This document shows, piece after piece, positions 6,127-43,693 of a DNA stretch of 64,000 nt. Each line of letters starts with the position of its first letter. Position 1 is the stretch's first letter. The position numbers and the translations under genes are program-made. The notes under the pieces were generated by a model. The model saw only the letters and a program-made list of their open reading frames with translations, did not search any database and was not told where the DNA came from. The stretch is from Lachnospiraceae bacterium (lineage in GTDB: Bacteria > Bacillota > Clostridia > Lachnospirales > Lachnospiraceae), in contig JAILFA010000033.1 in NCBI GenBank assembly GCA_024687125.1, forward strand, positions 62,001 to 126,000, in the 5' to 3' direction.

Positions 6127-7497
6127 ATGGCGAAGGAGTATAAGACAATACAGGAAGTCGCGGGTCCTCTGATGCTCGTGCGCGGCGTAGATGACGTCGC
6201 CTATGACGAACTGGGAGAGATCGAACTGTCAAACGGCGAAAGACGCCGCTGCAAGGTTCTGGAGATCGATGACGGCAACGCGCTGGTCCAGCTCTACGAA
6301 TCCGCGACAGGTATCAATCTGGAGAGTTCCAAGGTCCGATTCCTCGGACGAAGCCTGGAGCTTGGTGTTTCCGAGGACATGCTCTCCCGCGTTTTCGACG
6401 GTCTGGGACGCCCGATCGACAAGGGACCGGAGATCCTGCCCGAAGAGCGCAGAGACATCAACGGCCTCGCAATGAATCCGGCGGCACGTGACTATCCGTC
6501 CGAGTTCATTCAGACAGGTGTATCCGCGATCGACGGTCTGAACACGCTGGTCCGCGGACAGAAGCTGCCGATCTTCTCGGCCTCCGGTCTGCCTCATGCG
6601 CAGCTGGCCGCGCAGATCGCCAGACAGGCCAAGGTGGTTGGCACCGATGAGCCCTTCGCGGTCGTCTTTGCCGCCATGGGTATCACCTTCGAGGAATCCA
6701 ACTTCTTCATTGAGAGCTTCCAGGAGACCGGTGCTATCGATCGTGCCGTTCTGTTCATGAACCTGGCAAATGACCCGGCGGTCGAGCGTATCGCGACGCC
6801 CCGTATGGCGCTGACGGCAGCTGAGTATCTGGCCTTTGAGAAGGGCATGCACGTTCTGGTCATCCTGACGGATATCACGAACTACGCCGACGCTCTGCGT
6901 GAGGTTTCCGCGGCGCGTAAGGAAGTTCCCGGACGCCGAGGCTATCCGGGCTACATGTACACCGACCTGGCGACACTGTACGAGCGCGCCGGCAGACAGC
7001 GCGGCAGGAACGGATCCATCACGATGATCCCGATCCTCTCCATGCCGGAAGATGATAAGACCCACCCGATCCCTGACCTGACGGGATATATCACAGAGGG
7101 ACAGATCATCCTTTCCCGTGACCTGTACCGCAAGGGCGTTCAGCCGCCGATCGACGTGCTTCCGTCCCTGTCGCGACTTAAGGACAAGGGTATCGGTACC
7201 GGAAAGACCAGAGAAGACCACGCGAACACGATGAACCAGCTCTTTGCGGCGTATGCCCGCGGTAAGGACGCCAAGGAACTCATGGTCATCCTGGGTGAAG
7301 CGGCGCTGACCGACATCGATAAGCTGTATGCGAAGTTTGCCGATGAGTTCGAAGCACGCTACGTTTCGCAGGGCTACCGCTCCGACAGATCCATCGAAGA
7401 GACCCTGGATCTCGGCTGGGAACTGCTCCGCATCCTTCCGAGAACAGAGCTCAAGCGTATCAGGGACGAATACCTGGATAAATACTATGATAAGTGA
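6127..7497 (+). CDS. atpB: V-type ATP synthase subunit B (non-catalytic)
   Basis: This 456-residue subunit alternates with A in the A3B3 hexamer. As expected for B it has no Walker A motif; the equivalent stretch reads [17 protein letters not shown]. Family motifs include [44 protein letters not shown] (split here only for reading: residues ~240-290) and [15 protein letters not shown]. Its TGA stop (7495-7497) is also the first codon-like triplet of a 77-bp double-hairpin element that separates it from subunit D. Confidence 0.98.
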
Positions 7498-7571
7498 GCA
7501 CTTATGCCCGGTATTCCACGGGCATTAGTGCGAACTTAGTTCCACCGAACGAAGTGAGGTGGAACTTCCTT
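7495..7571 (+). repeat. 77-bp intercistronic double-hairpin element, copy A
   Basis: Hairpin 1 pairs GCACTTATGCCCG (7498-7510) with CGGGCATTAGTGC (7519-7531) around loop GTATTCCA, with one T-T mismatch. Hairpin 2 pairs AGTTCCACC (7538-7546) with GGTGGAACT (7558-7566) around an 11-nt loop. The tail TCCTT follows. Copies B (11732) and C (42578) have the same 77-bp layout, again starting with the upstream stop TGA. After this copy, GGAACTTCCTT is repeated (7561 and 7583). The second TTCCTT can pair with AAGGAA, the Shine-Dalgarno region of subunit D. Confidence 0.85.
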
Positions 7572-7608
7572 ACGAAGAGAAGTGGAACTTCCTTGAAAGG
7601 AAAATAAT

Positions 7609-8268
7609 ATGCCTACAGTCAACCCTACCAGAATGGAGCTTACCCGCTTAAAGGGCAAGCTCGCGACCGCGACACGCGGACATAAGCTGCTTAAGGACAA
7701 GCGTGATGAGCTCATGCGGCAGTTCCTGGATCTGGTGCGCGTGAACATGTCCCTTCGTCAGCGCGTGGAAGAGGGCCTGAAGACGGCCAACAAAAACTTT
7801 GCGCTCGCCCGTTCGGCAATGAGCGATGAGACCGTTGAGGTTGCCTTCATGGCCTCCAAGCAGGAGATCGAGGTCGAGGTGCAGGCCAAAAATGTCATGA
7901 GCGTCAATATTCCTCAGTTTGAGGTCAGGACGCGCACGAGCGATGAGAGCGACATCTATTCCTACGGCCTGGCTTTCACCTCCGGCGACCTGGATGACGC
8001 TGTTGCCTCACTCGCGGCGGTGCAGGCGGACATGGTGCGCCTTGCCGAGGTCGAGAAGGCCTGTCAGCTGATGGCGGCCGAGATCGAAAAGACCAGGCGC
8101 CGCGTGAACGCTCTTGAGCATGTCATGATCCCGCAGTATCAGAAGGATATCAAGTACATCTCGATGAAACTCGATGAAAACGAGCGCAGCACGCAGATCC
8201 GACTGATGAAGGTCAAGGACATGATGCTTGAGGAAGCGCATCACTACAAAGAAAAGATGAACGCCTGA
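7609..8268 (+). CDS. atpD: V-type ATP synthase subunit D (central shaft)
   Basis: This 219-residue protein is the axle of the rotary head. It has the family hallmarks: an N-terminal MPTVNPTRMELTRLKGKLATA helix and a C-terminal long helix, both coiled-coil, with a less conserved middle. It is the last gene of the operon. Unlike its neighbours it is set off by 111 bp that contain the double-hairpin element and a possible hairpin over its ribosome site (TTCCTT pairing with AAGGAA at 7589-7602). Its translation may therefore be controlled separately; this is inference. Confidence 0.95.
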   Translation: MPTVNPTRMELTRLKGKLATATRGHKLLKDKRDELMRQFLDLVRVNMSLRQRVEEGLKTANKNFALARSAMSDETVEVAFMASKQEIEVEVQAKNVMSVNIPQFEVRTRTSDESDIYSYGLAFTSGDLDDAVASLAAVQADMVRLAEVEKACQLMAAEIEKTRRRVNALEHVMIPQYQKDIKYISMKLDENERSTQIRLMKVKDMMLEEAHHYKEKMNA

Positions 8269-8300
8269 ACCTGATATTGCGTGTGTTCTGATGCTGACCC

Positions 8301-8339
8301 GGTTCCACCTTGCCCCGTGCGAGGTGGAACTTTTTTATT
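8301..8339 (+). terminator. Rho-independent terminator of the V-ATPase operon
   Basis: GTTCCACCT (8302-8310) pairs perfectly with AGGTGGAAC (8322-8330), followed by TTTTTTATT. The run of T lies on the plus strand only, so it ends the ATPase operon. It overlaps the stop codon of the convergent kinase gene. The stem is the same as hairpin 2 of the 77-bp elements. Confidence 0.9.
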
Positions 8340-10540: not shown

Positions 10541-11734
10541 ATGGATATCGATAAGCCGGAACAGGAGATCCTTGAAGAACTCAAAGAGGCCTTTGCGGCG
10601 CAGTACGGCGATACACAGGGGGCCCGCTGTTTCTTTGCACCCGGACGCGTAAACCTCATCGGGGAGCATACGGATTACAACGGCGGACACGTCTTTCCGT
10701 GCGCGCTGACGATTGGCACCTATGCCATGGCGCGCAGACGCGGCGACAGGGAGATCCGTTTCCACTCGCTCAACGGCAGCGAGGAGCGGTATATCACCTG
10801 CAGTCTGGATGATCTGGAGCCGGAGGGCAAGAGCGGCTGGACCATGTATCCGCTGGGAGTCGTCTGGACATTTCAGGGACAGGGCATGATCCTGCCGGAG
10901 GGCTTTGAGATGGAGATCTGCGGTAACATCCCTGCGGGTTCAGGGCTTTCCAGTTCCGCGTCTCTTGAAGTGCTGACAGGGTTTGTCCTGAAAAGCCTTT
11001 ACGGGTTTGACGTGGACGGCGTCACACTGGCGAAGATCGGTCAGTATTCCGAGAACAATTACAACGGCATGCAGTGCGGCATCATGGATCAGTTCGCGTC
11101 CGCGATGGGGCTTAAGGATCACGCGATCTTCCTCAACACGGCGGACCTCTCCTATACCTATGCGCCGGTTCTGCTGGAGGGAAAGAAACTGGTCGTCACC
11201 AATACGAATAAAAAGCACAGGCTGACGGACTCCGCCTACAATGACCGCCGGAGTTCCTGCGAACAGGCTCTTAAGGAGCTGCAGGCCGCCGCGCCGATCG
11301 AGAATCTCTGTGATCTGACGCCGGAGCAGTTTACGGTCCTGGAATCCAATATCAGAGATGAAGACAGACGGCGCAAGGCAAAACACGCCATCTATGAGAA
11401 CTATCGGACGCTGCAGGCGGTGGAAGCCCTGCAGAACGGCGATCTGGCGACATTCGGCCAGCTGATGAACGAATCCCATATATCCCTGCGCGATGATTAT
11501 GAAGTCAGCTGCGAGGAACTGGACGTGCTGGCAGAGGAAGCGTGGAAGATCCCCGGTGTGATCGGCGCGCGCATGACGGGCGGCGGCTTCGGGGGATGTA
11601 CGGTCGCGATCGTCGATGACGACGCCGTGGAGACCTATCGGAAACAGGTCGGGGAAGTGTATCTTAAGCGGATCGGCTATGAGGCATCCTTTTACGTTGT
11701 TTCGATCGGCGGAGGACCGAGAGAACTTAAGTGA
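10541..11734 (+). CDS. galK: Galactokinase
   Basis: Galactokinase phosphorylates galactose at C1 with ATP, the first step of the Leloir pathway, in the cytoplasm. The 397-residue protein is full length. It shows the family signature GRVNLIGEHTDYNGG near residue 35, the GHMP ATP-binding motif GNIPAGSGLSSSASLEV, and the C-terminal GARMTGGGFGGCTVAIV. The chosen ATG at 10541 has AGGAGG eight bases upstream; the upstream in-frame codons lie within the promoter. galT and galE are not in the window, so the gene stands alone. Its stop codon opens the second 77-bp hairpin element. Confidence 0.97.
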   Translation: MDIDKPEQEILEELKEAFAAQYGDTQGARCFFAPGRVNLIGEHTDYNGGHVFPCALTIGTYAMARRRGDREIRFHSLNGSEERYITCSLDDLEPEGKSGWTMYPLGVVWTFQGQGMILPEGFEMEICGNIPAGSGLSSSASLEVLTGFVLKSLYGFDVDGVTLAKIGQYSENNYNGMQCGIMDQFASAMGLKDHAIFLNTADLSYTYAPVLLEGKKLVVTNTNKKHRLTDSAYNDRRSSCEQALKELQAAAPIENLCDLTPEQFTVLESNIRDEDRRRKAKHAIYENYRTLQAVEALQNGDLATFGQLMNESHISLRDDYEVSCEELDVLAEEAWKIPGVIGARMTGGGFGGCTVAIVDDDAVETYRKQVGEVYLKRIGYEASFYVVSIGGGPRELK

Positions 11735-11808
11735 ACACTTACTCGCGGTACCTCACGCGAGTTAGTGTGAACTTAGTTCCACCGAACGCAGAGAGGTGGA
11801 ACTTCCTA
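11732..11808 (+). repeat. 77-bp intercistronic double-hairpin element, copy B
   Basis: Same 77-bp layout as the copy at 7495. Hairpin 1 is ACACTTACTCGCG (11735-11747) with CGCGAGTTAGTGT (11756-11768), loop GTACCTCA. Hairpin 2 is AGTTCCACC (11775-11783) with GGTGGAACT (11795-11803). It starts with the TGA of galK and ends on the stop codon (TAG on the minus strand, 11806-11808) of the convergent gene, so it exactly fills the space between two stops. There is no T-run, so it is not a standard terminator. Confidence 0.85.
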
Positions 11809-29180: not shown

Positions 29181-29627
29181 ATGGGGATGGAATTACTGCA
29201 GGCATCTACAGCGGATGCCTTAACAATAACCGGGATTTCGAGACGGGCCTTTCACAGTGATGTGGAGGTTGGTGCCGGGGAGAAAACGGGGCCGCCGGGA
29301 TATATGTCAGTTCCGTATCACACGAAAATGGCCAGATCAAAGCATCTGTTCAAGCTGGTGGACAACGGCCTGATCATCGGCGGAGCGGTACTTTTTCCGG
29401 ATGATGAAAAACTGAATATCGGCAGGATCTTTATCGGTCCGGAGAATCATCGAAAAGGCTACGGTGTTTTCATGATGCAGAAAATCGAAGCGTTATATCC
29501 GTCAGTAAAGGAATTTACACTTGATACGCCGATCTGGAACATCAGAACCAACGCGTTTTATACAAAACTGGGATACACGGAAGTAAAACGTGATAATGAT
29601 TTTGTGTATTTTTCCAAACAACGATGA
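29181..29627 (+). CDS. GNAT-family N-acetyltransferase
   Basis: This 148-residue enzyme of the GCN5-related family would transfer an acetyl group from acetyl-CoA to an amine. The acetyl-CoA loop is GPENHRKGYG near residue 92, followed by MQKIEALYPSVKEFTLDTPI and the C-terminal NAFYTKLGYTEVKR. Length is normal. An ATG six bases in is an alternative start. A diverged copy of the last third of this gene is present at 35271-35429, about 5.8 kb downstream. Substrate unknown. Confidence 0.85.
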   Translation: MGMELLQASTADALTITGISRRAFHSDVEVGAGEKTGPPGYMSVPYHTKMARSKHLFKLVDNGLIIGGAVLFPDDEKLNIGRIFIGPENHRKGYGVFMMQKIEALYPSVKEFTLDTPIWNIRTNAFYTKLGYTEVKRDNDFVYFSKQR

Positions 29628-35162: not shown

Positions 35163-35270
35163 ATGAAACGTAAAACGACAAAAAGAGATCCTTGCAAATG
35201 TGTCAATCAAAACAGTACAAATGTGTCAACTGTAATACTGCAAATGTGTCAACCAGAACATTGCATATGA
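35163..35270 (+). CDS. Possible 35-residue small protein
   Basis: ATG at 35163 with GGAAGG about seven bases upstream and a promoter-like pair further upstream opens a 35-codon frame, MKRKTTKRDPCKCVNQNSTN and onward, ending CQPEHCI. It is basic at the N-terminus and contains four cysteines. The coding stretch contains the three 23-bp-spaced repeats, and 23 is not a multiple of 3, so the repeats encode different residues in each copy. That speaks for a DNA role of the repeats rather than a protein repeat. No family is recognised; it may not be a gene. Confidence 0.3.
   Translation: MKRKTTKRDPCKCVNQNSTNVSTVILQMCQPEHCI
35195..35252 (+). repeat. Three iteron-like direct repeats with 23-bp period
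   Basis: CAAATGTGTCAA occurs without mismatch at 35195-35206, 35218-35229 and 35241-35252, exactly 23 bp apart. Spacers are 11 bp and differ in sequence. Copies and spacers are too short for CRISPR. The spacing of about two helix turns would put bound proteins on one face of the DNA. Confidence 0.85.
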
Positions 35271-35429
35271 ATGCGGGAAATAGAAGCTTTATATCCAACG
35301 GTAAAGGAATTTACACTTGATACACGGATCTGGAACATCAGAACCAACGCATTTTATACGAAACTGGGATATACGGAAGTAAAACGCGATAATGATTTCG
35401 TGTATTTCTCCAAAATAATTCAAAGTTGA
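35271..35429 (+). pseudogene. Duplicated 3' end of a GNAT acetyltransferase gene
   Basis: The 52-codon frame MREIEALYPTVKEFTLDTRI, WNIRTNAFYTKLGYTEVKRD, NDFVYFSKIIQS is a second, diverged copy of the C-terminal third of the GNAT gene at 29181-29627. By eye about nine bases in ten match between 29474-29621 and 35270-35420. The N-terminal two thirds, including the acetyl-CoA loop, are absent. The copy begins right after the 23-bp-period repeats. Confidence 0.85.
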
Positions 35430-41761: not shown

Positions 41762-42580
41762 ATGGTAAAAGGGCTCTATACGGCATATACCGGCATGTTG
41801 AACGAGCAGACGAAGATGGATGTGCTCACCAACAACCTGGCAAACTTCAACACCACAGGCTTTAAAAAGGAAGGAACCGTATCGACAGCCTTTTCCGACA
41901 AGCTCGCGCTGCGCATCAAGGATGAAACGGACGCCAAGACGCGGGATAAACTCGGCATCGTCAATCTGGGTGTCAAGGTAGACGGCACCTATGTGGATTT
42001 TTCTCAGGGCGGACTGAAAAACACCGATCTTCAGACAGATCTGGCCATTCAGGGCAAGGGCTTTTTCAACATCGAACACACGGATCACAGCGGCAACACA
42101 ACGGTCATGTACACGCGCGACGGCAACTTCGCCGTGACGACCAACGGTGAACTGACCACGCAGGATGGCGATTATGTGCTGGACCGCAACGGCGGCCACG
42201 TCATCATCGATCCCACGCAGGAATTTTCCGTGACACTGGACGGATCGATCTTTCAGAACGGACAGATGGTAGATACCATCGGATTCACGGATTTTCAGCA
42301 GGACGCCGAGGATCTGGAGGGACAGTCGGTCACGGATCATTATTATAATTCCTTAAGACATTACGGAGAGAATCTGTTTGTCCGTACGGACGCCGCAGTG
42401 GAGATCCCGCCGCAGCTCTCGGTTGTGCAGGGGTATCTGGAACAGTCCAACGTTTCCACCGTGGACGAGATGGTGCAGATGATTGCGACGCAGCGGCAGT
42501 ATGATTCCAATCAAAAGGTCATCACGACGATCGATGAAACACTGGATATCGCAGTTCAGCAGCTGGGTAGGATTGGCTGA
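41762..42580 (+). CDS. flhO: Flagellar basal-body rod protein FlhO (FlgF/FlgG family)
   Basis: The 272-residue protein belongs to the flagellar rod/hook family. Its N-terminus has the conserved helix LYTAYTGMLNEQTKMDVLTN and NNLANFNTTGFKK. Its C-terminus has the coiled helix VDEMVQMIATQRQYDSNQKV ending in the usual ITTIDETLDIA. It forms part of the periplasm-equivalent rod of the flagellum. It lies 21 bp after mbl with AGGAGG before the ATG. The TGA stop begins the third 77-bp double-hairpin element. Confidence 0.9.
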   Translation: MVKGLYTAYTGMLNEQTKMDVLTNNLANFNTTGFKKEGTVSTAFSDKLALRIKDETDAKTRDKLGIVNLGVKVDGTYVDFSQGGLKNTDLQTDLAIQGKGFFNIEHTDHSGNTTVMYTRDGNFAVTTNGELTTQDGDYVLDRNGGHVIIDPTQEFSVTLDGSIFQNGQMVDTIGFTDFQQDAEDLEGQSVTDHYYNSLRHYGENLFVRTDAAVEIPPQLSVVQGYLEQSNVSTVDEMVQMIATQRQYDSNQKVITTIDETLDIAVQQLGRIG

Positions 42581-42654
42581 GCATTTGCATCCGGTATTTA
42601 ACGGATGTTAATGCGAAGCCAGTTCTGGCGAGCGAAGCGAGGCAGAACTTCCTT
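42578..42654 (+). repeat. 77-bp intercistronic double-hairpin element, copy C
   Basis: Same 77-bp layout as at 7495 and 11732 but with different stem sequences. Hairpin 1 is GCATTTGCATCCG (42581-42593) with CGGATGTTAATGC (42602-42614), loop GTATTTAA. Hairpin 2 is AGTTCTGGC (42621-42629) with GGCAGAACT (42641-42649), one mismatch. The tail TCCTT (42650-42654) can pair with AAGGA of the flhP ribosome site (42662-42666). Confidence 0.85.
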
Positions 42655-42674: not shown

Positions 42675-43496
42675 ATGGTTAGAAGCTTATGGTCGGCAGC
42701 GACCGGCATGAACGCACAGCAGACCAACGTTGACACGATCGCCAATAACCTGGCTAACGTCAACTCCATGGGCTATAAAGCGCAGGTGGCGGAGTTCAAG
42801 TCCCTGCTCTATCAGACACTGCAGACCAAGTCCACCGTAGAGAACGGCGGCAATCCCCCGGTCGACTCCGAGGTCGGTCTGGGTGTCCGGGTAGCGTCGA
42901 TCAACTCCTCGTTCTCCCAGGGCGCGTTTCTGGATGCGGCAAGCGATACCGCATTCGCGATCGGCGGCGATGGATTCTTCTCTTACCGCAACGAGAACAA
43001 TGAGCAGATCTTTACGCGCAACGGTGACTTTGTCTGGGCTATTGCGGCGAACAATACCAACGACATCACCCTGACGACCTCTGAGGGATATCATGTACTG
43101 GATACCCAGGGACGAGAGATCACTCTCCGCGGATACGCAGCAAACCGTGTGACCGTCGCGGCGGACGGCAACGTGCAGTATCCCGATGCCAACAACGTTC
43201 CGCAGAACATCGGCTTCCAGATCGGCCTGTGGCAGTTCAACAATCCGACCGGTCTTGAGCGTGTCGGCGATACCTCGTTCCGCCCGACGGCCGCCAGCGG
43301 CCAGGCGCTCAACGAGGCGACCACGGCGAATCTCTCACGCAGCAAGATCGTACAGGGATATCTGGAAGGCTCCAACGTTAACGTCGCCACCGAGATGGTC
43401 AACCTCATCGTCGCGCAGCGCGCCTATGAAATGAACTCCAAGGCGATCACAACGACGGATGAGATGATGCAGACCGCCAACAACTTGAAGCGATAA
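42675..43496 (+). CDS. flhP: Flagellar basal-body rod protein FlhP (FlgG-like)
   Basis: The 273-residue protein is the second FlgF/FlgG-family member. The N-terminus has LWSAATGMNAQQTNVDTIAN and NLANVNSMGYKAQ; the middle has DTAFAIGGDGFFSYRNENNE; the C-terminus has VNVATEMVNLIVAQRAYEMN ending TTDEMMQTANNLKR. It would form the distal rod. The ATG has AAAGGAG ten bases upstream. That site lies just behind the double-hairpin element and may be masked by its tail. The order mbl-flhO-flhP is as in Bacillus. Confidence 0.92.
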   Translation: MVRSLWSAATGMNAQQTNVDTIANNLANVNSMGYKAQVAEFKSLLYQTLQTKSTVENGGNPPVDSEVGLGVRVASINSSFSQGAFLDAASDTAFAIGGDGFFSYRNENNEQIFTRNGDFVWAIAANNTNDITLTTSEGYHVLDTQGREITLRGYAANRVTVAADGNVQYPDANNVPQNIGFQIGLWQFNNPTGLERVGDTSFRPTAASGQALNEATTANLSRSKIVQGYLEGSNVNVATEMVNLIVAQRAYEMNSKAITTTDEMMQTANNLKR

Positions 43497-43693
43497 ACAA
43501 TGAGGAGAAGTCATGCAGCCGCATGCCTGCATGCGCGGCTGCGTGACCTCGACGAATGTACGGACATGAGCAACGAAGCCATGAGAGCGAAGCGAACAGG
43601 GCGAAAGTTGCGAATGGCCGCGACGGTGCAAAGCCGCAAAGCGGCGAGCCGTCGGTTTATCGCGATACCCCTCCCTCATGAAAGGAGTCCCTT
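43497..43693 (+). other. Structured 197-bp spacer in the flagellar gene group
   Basis: No believable gene is present. A strong hairpin at 43512-43545 pairs CATGCAGCCGCATGC with GCATGCGCGGCTGCGTG, with a 2-nt bulge. A nested hairpin at 43621-43654 pairs CGACGG with CCGTCG and inside that GCCGC with GCGGC. Between them is a purine-rich stretch with GAGAGCGAAGCGAAC, like the hairpin-2 loop of the 77-bp copy at 42578. Neither hairpin has a T-run. It could be a structured RNA or a repeat element. Confidence 0.6.

Follow-up and report, generated by a model that had tools for sequence, protein, structure and literature searches.

What kind of sequence would place the same double hairpin, in the same orientation, over the stop codons of an ATPase gene, a kinase gene and a flagellar gene? 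The question arises in a 64,000 nt stretch of a Lachnospiraceae bacterium genome (assembly GCA_024687125.1, contig JAILFA010000033.1, positions 62,001 to 126,000, forward strand; hereafter the window), in which an earlier note, made from the letters alone, described three copies of a 77 nt element. The element has a defined anatomy with compensated stems, lies mostly in sense orientation anchored on stop codons, and is present or absent at the same loci between relatives. The explanation favoured here, with a probability of roughly one in two, is a REP/YPAL-like mobile element that is used in place as an mRNA 3′ or intercistronic boundary structure, through which it would affect expression. 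Mobility is an addition to the earlier note, which had no such suggestion. Dispersed small hairpins are widespread among bacteria, but in this element the stop codon takes part in the pairing.

All three copies stand where they had been placed (7495–7571, 11732–11808 and 42578–42654), each 77 nt long and built to the plan described: a TGA, a 13 bp stem with a T-T mismatch at pair 6, an 8 nt loop beginning GTA and ending in A, a 6 nt link, and 9 nt arms round an 11 nt loop, followed by a TCCT tail. Scores below are from model R1, built from seven copies of the host genome. Genes were identified by Pfam within the window and elsewhere by eye from translations.

7490–7571, forward strand: copy 1, at the stop codon of V/A-type ATPase subunit B and before subunit D (107 bits with R1; both genes by Pfam)
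7492–7495, forward strand: 5′ strand (AAGT) of the copy 1 outer stem, pairing with 7534–7537; its final T opens the TGA stop
7495–7497, forward strand: TGA stop codon of copy 1, with the T paired and GA opposite GA at 7532–7533
7498–7531, forward strand: hairpin 1 of copy 1, arms 7498–7510 and 7519–7531, loop 7511–7518, U·U at pair 6
7534–7537, forward strand: 3′ strand (ACTT) of the copy 1 outer stem
7538–7566, forward strand: hairpin 2 of copy 1, with loop GAACGAAGTGA, a tandem GA plus an AC-GAA-GT minihairpin
7567–7571, forward strand: TCCTT tail of copy 1
11727–11808, forward strand: copy 2, at the stop codon of a GHMP (galactokinase-like) kinase gene (94.9 bits with R1; Pfam)
11732–11734, forward strand: internal TGA stop codon of copy 2
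42573–42654, forward strand: copy 3, at the stop codon that ends the first gene of a flagellar rod protein pair (98.7 bits with R1; Pfam), in the order flgF-flgG by eye
42575–42578, forward strand: 5′ strand (GGCT) of the copy 3 outer stem, pairing with AGCC at 42617–42620, compensated relative to AAGT/ACTT
42578–42580, forward strand: internal TGA stop codon of copy 3

In hairpin 1, pairs 1, 4, 8, 9, 10 and 11 vary between copies yet stay paired, as had been reported, and the account needs correcting at pair 7, a G-T wobble in copy 3. The changes in hairpin 2 are likewise compensated, except for one G-G mismatch in copy 3. The 6 nt link is not the single strand it was taken for: its ACTT (AGCC in copy 3) pairs with AAGT (GGCT) across the stop codon. 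Thus the stop codon lies inside the folded structure and not ahead of it, since the last codon and the stop codon (AAGU, or GGCU at 42575) pair with ACUU or AGCC of the element across a tandem G·A (GA/GA). A further copy, on contig C48, has the outer stem AAGTT/AACTT. The hairpin 2 loop is itself ordered, with a tandem GA below AC-GAA-GT or GC-GAA-GC. RNA folding of three 91 nt segments containing copies 1–3 gives −38.2 to −41.7 kcal/mol, and folding with DNA parameters gives z-scores of −6.5 for copy 1 and −5.6 for copy 3, with 0 of 200 shuffles as good for either.

The note's proposal of selection on structure was staked on further copies with compensating differences. The host genome holds eight full copies, and the compensation is real. 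Among seven host-genome copies, 16 of 27 pairs carry compensating changes (28 cells, where shuffles average 8.1 and 0 of 500 reach that number), with one of five measures, further pair types, not above shuffles (166/500). A larger set was drawn from 102 matches, which reduced to 91 distinct cores and to 80 after removal of 11 that were weak, partial, overlapping or antisense; this set was partly picked by high score and pattern. Of these, 78 were aligned with MAFFT (L127:5648-5734 and L107:6341-6427 were left out by hand), and 94.0 % of 1686 stem cells are paired. All 22 pairs change on both sides, with 299 compensating cells against 79.7 in shuffles and 0 of 500 shuffles as high on all five measures; the structure was chosen on this same alignment, so these counts lean towards it, and related copies are non-independent, so shuffle counts are no probabilities. 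Controls with the structure slid along the alignment give 6–52 compensating cells and 26.6–46.3 % paired.

The unpaired positions are also conserved. The U·U mismatch is kept in 74 of 78 copies, the second GA/GA in 65–66 of 78, the top GA/GA in 77 and 78 of 78, and the basal GA/GA in 48 and 58 of 78. Palindrome-correcting template switching was set aside as the sole source of compensation, as the U·U and tandem GA remain unpaired. The outer and lower pairs of hairpin 1 are the weakest (87.2 % paired in that helix), partly because the pairing of one subtype (AAGUAAUC/UACUACUU) is shifted by one position. The outer stem appears to follow the end of the gene: in two copies behind related permease genes, L110 (TAAACT/AGTTTG) and L046 (TGAACT/AGTTCG), the UAA/UGA difference is matched on the opposite strand, a match that may arise through target choice or through later adaptation.

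Placement at gene ends is the second regularity. A sense ORF (open reading frame) of at least 50 codons stops at −5 to +13 of the left end in 72 of 80 copies (68 of these ORFs have at least 100 codons), and nearly all stop-anchored copies read in the direction of the gene; an antisense ORF of at least 100 codons ends near the right end in 6 of 80. Copies are found at atpG-atpD, rpsM-rpsK, pgk-tpi, dnaK-dnaJ, hbd-bcd, flgF-flgG and the ends of ABC sugar permease genes (names by eye). For the better-scoring copies of four genomes (8 of 8 matches in G000, 37 of 45 in G005 after one contig-end duplicate was dropped, 20 of 34 in G024 and 14 of 21 in G031), the upstream gene's sense stop codon lies in the left arm in 56 of 79. 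The question raised earlier, whether copies always start at a stop codon, is answered in the negative: they do so in 8/8 and 14/14 in G000 and G031, and in 25/37 and 9/20 in G005 and G024. With the window of counting shifted by 3 nt, the values are 8/8 for G000, 25/38 for G005, 8/20 for G024 and 13/14 for G031.

In the two genomes with a smaller share of stop-anchored copies, some copies begin at terminator T-runs. Of the 23 copies without a stop codon in the left arm, 7 begin by eye at the T-run that follows a strong predicted hairpin (L241, L265, L269, L270, L272, L274 and L275, of which L241, L274 and L275 are weak, 38–43 bits). The rest include tandem or nested copies, L214 and L221 in a repetitive, possibly coding stretch, and L261 (contig C15 of G024), which sits directly behind an FMN riboswitch aptamer, as read by eye, and is absent there in G036.

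The frequency of a stop codon in the left arm (72/80), together with a sense ORF of at least 80 codons starting within 200 nt in 65 of 80 copies (median gap 37 nt), is what would be expected if the stop-codon stem were a translational device, delaying termination or governing reinitiation at the gene that follows. Within the stem, however, the stop codon is found at positions that span about a dozen nt; the next gene at atpG-atpD has its own ribosome site well past the tail (by eye); and copy 2, the right end of which runs into the TAG stop of a convergent open frame, faces a convergent gene with no next sense gene nearby. This explanation is considered improbable.

An intrinsic, possibly two-way, transcription terminator is very improbable. 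Copies do lie at gene ends, one of them between convergent genes, and one degenerate copy in the window has a well-paired hairpin 2 followed by TTTTTTA, a site called as terminator-like. Copies 1–3 by contrast end in TTCCT without a T-run and are not called in the terminator scan, a weak point as that scan is limited to loops of 3–8 nt; many copies lie between co-directional genes, and some stand behind an existing terminator. The degenerate copy and a partial repeat both follow copy 1:

7573–7598, forward strand: additional right arm and tail (partial tandem repeat; direct repeat D3)
8253–8337, forward strand: degenerate candidate copy, at the ATPase subunit D stop codon (31.2 bits with R1), with the terminator-like site at 8301–8331

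The family is centred on one genus. In the host genome R1 reports 15 places at E≤10, the eight full copies being those at 76.9 bits or more. Across 61 sampled genomes at E≤0.01 it matches in 33, all of the same genus, Butyrivibrio: 33 of 37 genomes of that genus (own included) and 0 of 24 from other families, with no match in the same-genus genomes G002, G008, G018 and G025 at this threshold. The exact pattern occurs in 52 stretches of titled genomes, 47 from Butyrivibrio and 5 from Lachnospiraceae bacterium. Model R2, built from 78 copies, finds 8 (G000), 45 (G005), 34 (G024), 21 (G031) and 2 (G015) at E≤0.01, weak and partial matches included. In an order-wide sample at E≤1e-4 it matches 14 of 246 genomes: 7 of this genus, 6 in five other genera of the family and 1 of another family. 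The family-level cousins (mostly 28–39 bits) have the hairpin 1 core CUURGCGAGG...CGAGCYUAG with U·U and GA/GA, and about 12 of 18 cousin matches sit within a long outer stem (predicted folds, by eye). A TwoAYGGAY RNA (101 bits, L200:1107-1273 of G198) lies close to one cousin. A viral origin was set aside, as the exact pattern was found 0 times in viral contigs, a weak test with a single exact pattern. Recent within-genome amplification was likewise rejected as a general rule, the mean identities within and between genomes being alike (0.61–0.69); the exceptions are one subfamily in G024 and a small number of further pairs at 0.87–0.93.

Filled and empty orthologous sites, the mark of MITE (miniature inverted-repeat transposable element) or YPAL-like behaviour, were found when the joined flanks of nine G024 sites were searched in three close relatives. 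A one-piece match without the element exists at four of the nine: L258 (in G070), L261 (G036), L265 (G036) and L270 (all three), the one-piece matches in G070 being only 71–74 % alike. In alignments of six of the nine sites, the empty junction is clean for L265 in G036 and for L270 in G072; L261 and L270 show diverged sequence at the junction in G036. The L267 element is absent in G070 and in G072, the latter with an apparent right-end scar, and L266 and L269 are filled in G024, G036 and G072. In a group of four G024 copies, each of which shares 92–95 % identity with another member, the flanks are unrelated and every copy starts at a terminator-like T-run. The G024 T-run copies carry their own AAGTA/TACTT stem, because the two clean empty sites lack AAGTA.

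Six more copies of the host genome were compared with relatives without the element, and the positions of the protein ends mostly agree or nearly agree: DRYFK* (AAGTAA in G015) against DRYFK*, TDKK* against TDNK*, and RLQ* or RLS* against RIG* (FlgF). In the DRYFK* gene AAGTAA is present even without the element. The exception is the galactokinase-like gene, which is longer in G015. In G015 a diverged form of the ATPase B copy stands at the same stop codon; in G008 the copy is absent.

The atpG-atpD junction was followed across the 30 best-matching species, of which 14 have a full copy (15 copies in all). These 15 copies are 97.8 % paired, with compensating changes at 13 of 22 pairs (41 compensating cells, 0 of 500 shuffles), further pair types not being above shuffles (62/500). 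On the AtpG tree the distribution takes about 10 gain/loss changes (9–10 over bootstraps), and well-supported branches force at least 6; G076 shows an apparent deletion scar. Together with the empty sites in close relatives and the near-identical copies with unrelated flanks, these changes indicate, from comparison of genomes, that the element moves. The repeated gains and losses also offer natural pairs for measuring the effect of the element on operon expression. At the same junction, L142 (G019) and L150 (G031) carry the right arm and tail (GCGAGAGCAGAACTTCCTTG or similar) repeated head to tail about 5–6 times after the element.

Several observations weigh against use of the element in place. 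On the AtpG tree, presence at atpG-atpD shows no clustering beyond that of shuffled labels, and sister species carry different subtypes there (L150/L153, L136/L139), so that part of the compensation at this junction may reflect re-insertion or exchange rather than change in place. The 16 of 30 species without a full copy indicate that the element is dispensable there, and the more abundant ATP synthase subunit (beta) is encoded downstream of it, not upstream. Little transcription is to be expected for copies that follow terminator T-runs. Only 16 of 1686 stem cells are G-U pairs, a proportion that is probably low for a constraint on RNA only.

The same scarcity of G-U pairs would suit a DNA element that is purely selfish and works in the manner of REP or IS200/IS605, in which single-stranded DNA hairpins are recognised by a trans-acting transposase, structure serves mobility and host effects are incidental. 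The four near-identical copies with unrelated flanks agree with this, as do the cousins in other genera, mostly within long inverted stems, and inspection by eye of the two cleanest empty/filled sites shows no target-site duplication. In DNA, both GCGAAGC-type caps and tandem GA have very high stability. Y1_Tnp (PF01797), however, has no match in nine copy-bearing genomes (G000, G015, G017, G021, G024, G026, G033, G034 and G036), two of which, G024 and G033, are 99–100 % complete (own genome 86 %); it matches in 47 of 61 genomes of the genus, and dependence on a resident Y1 transposase is therefore unsupported. Moreover, copies only about 65 % alike are still paired throughout, and mobility as the only constraint leaves the opposite-strand matching of stop-codon differences unexplained. 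A purely selfish element is the next most probable explanation.

The favoured explanation, mobility combined with use in place, would run as follows. A Butyrivibrio family of non-autonomous, two-hairpin mobile elements of about 80 nt lies in sense orientation at gene 3′ edges, either at the stop codon or directly behind a terminator T-run, and for copies that stay in an operon the RNA structure would be maintained. The 5′ strand of the basal stem is supplied by the last codon of the gene together with its stop codon; above it come a tandem G·A, five pairs, the U·U, at least three pairs (with a second tandem G·A in most relatives) and a G-C-closed loop, then a hairpin with tandem G·A under a GCGAAGC-type cap, and a UUCCUU tail. 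Hairpin 1 would be opened at its base by a terminating ribosome; in the intervals before the next ribosome, both hairpins, stacked on each other, would mark the 3′ end of the cistron. They may block 3′ exonucleases, guide endonuclease cleavage, or both, and flanking genes could thereby be expressed at different levels.

Several known systems come close to the element. REP/BIME elements with RAYT (Y1) transposases are also dispersed imperfect hairpins near gene ends, with a conserved tetranucleotide at the hairpin foot; the present element differs in its sense placement at stop codons and in the nine copy-bearing genomes without a Y1 match. Group IIC introns likewise insert in sense directly behind terminator hairpins, but they are far longer and have an intron fold. 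In the sections of one study that cover them, YPAL and ERIC are small, mobile structured repeats; YPAL too has empty and filled sites; transcripts of neighbouring genes include ERIC, which is linked to the stability of the upstream mRNA, an effect that is only suggested for YPAL (PMC2229807). In those same sections YPAL is about 168 bp and makes target duplications, ERIC is 127 bp, and no stop codon paired inside either element is described (PMC2229807). The intergenic cip-cel stem-loops of Ruminiclostridium cellulolyticum, between operon genes of a Gram-positive, guide cleavage, protect transcript ends and stabilise transcripts, and in the parts of the paper concerned they are not presented as a dispersed family (PMC10311766). 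By analogy the element may work like YPAL/ERIC and the cip-cel stem-loops; membership in neither is established. No description of the element was recognised in the portions of the open-access PMC literature covered.

How so small an element finds its sites is a further matter, and the family may show how stop codons and terminator ends are found. Rather unlikely, and offered tentatively, is a placement route that reads the gene's 3′ edge as it is in RNA (stop codon or terminator end) in one orientation; the targeted stop codon would become part of the fold, pairing would then follow stop-codon differences, and host operons would re-acquire the element repeatedly at the same junctions.

In line with the note's supposition of a Lachnospiraceae family without a named RNA family, nothing in the window matches over the element at Rfam's curated (gathering) cut-off. 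Membership in GA-cis RNA (RF02987) was rejected: copy 1 scores 23.7 bits where the cut-off is 34.7, and it was the only one of 13 loci to be reported at E≤5; other weak matches (PrrB_RsmZ, Termite-leu, lncRNA models) are below cut-off and were treated as chance. GA-cis resembles the element in being a short structured family of the same genus with C-GAA-G capped hairpins, and differs in sequence and layout. At E≤0.01 it occurs in 10 of the 61 genomes sampled, all of genus g1; a search pairing GA-cis with Coprococcus eutactus returned nothing in the open-access PMC literature. The host genome has a strong GA-cis copy at C6:7697-7783 on the reverse strand (locus L279, 91 bits), and G020 has 28 matches, several as head-to-tail pairs 87 nt apart.

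Other features of the window include a Clostridiales-1 RNA (RF01699) at 43491–43662 on the forward strand (61.8 bits), about 0.8 kb downstream of copy 3. Two 144 nt repeats, 90 % alike, lie at 29475–29618 and 35271–35414, and the second is preceded by three 31 nt copies at 23 nt spacing (35193–35269).
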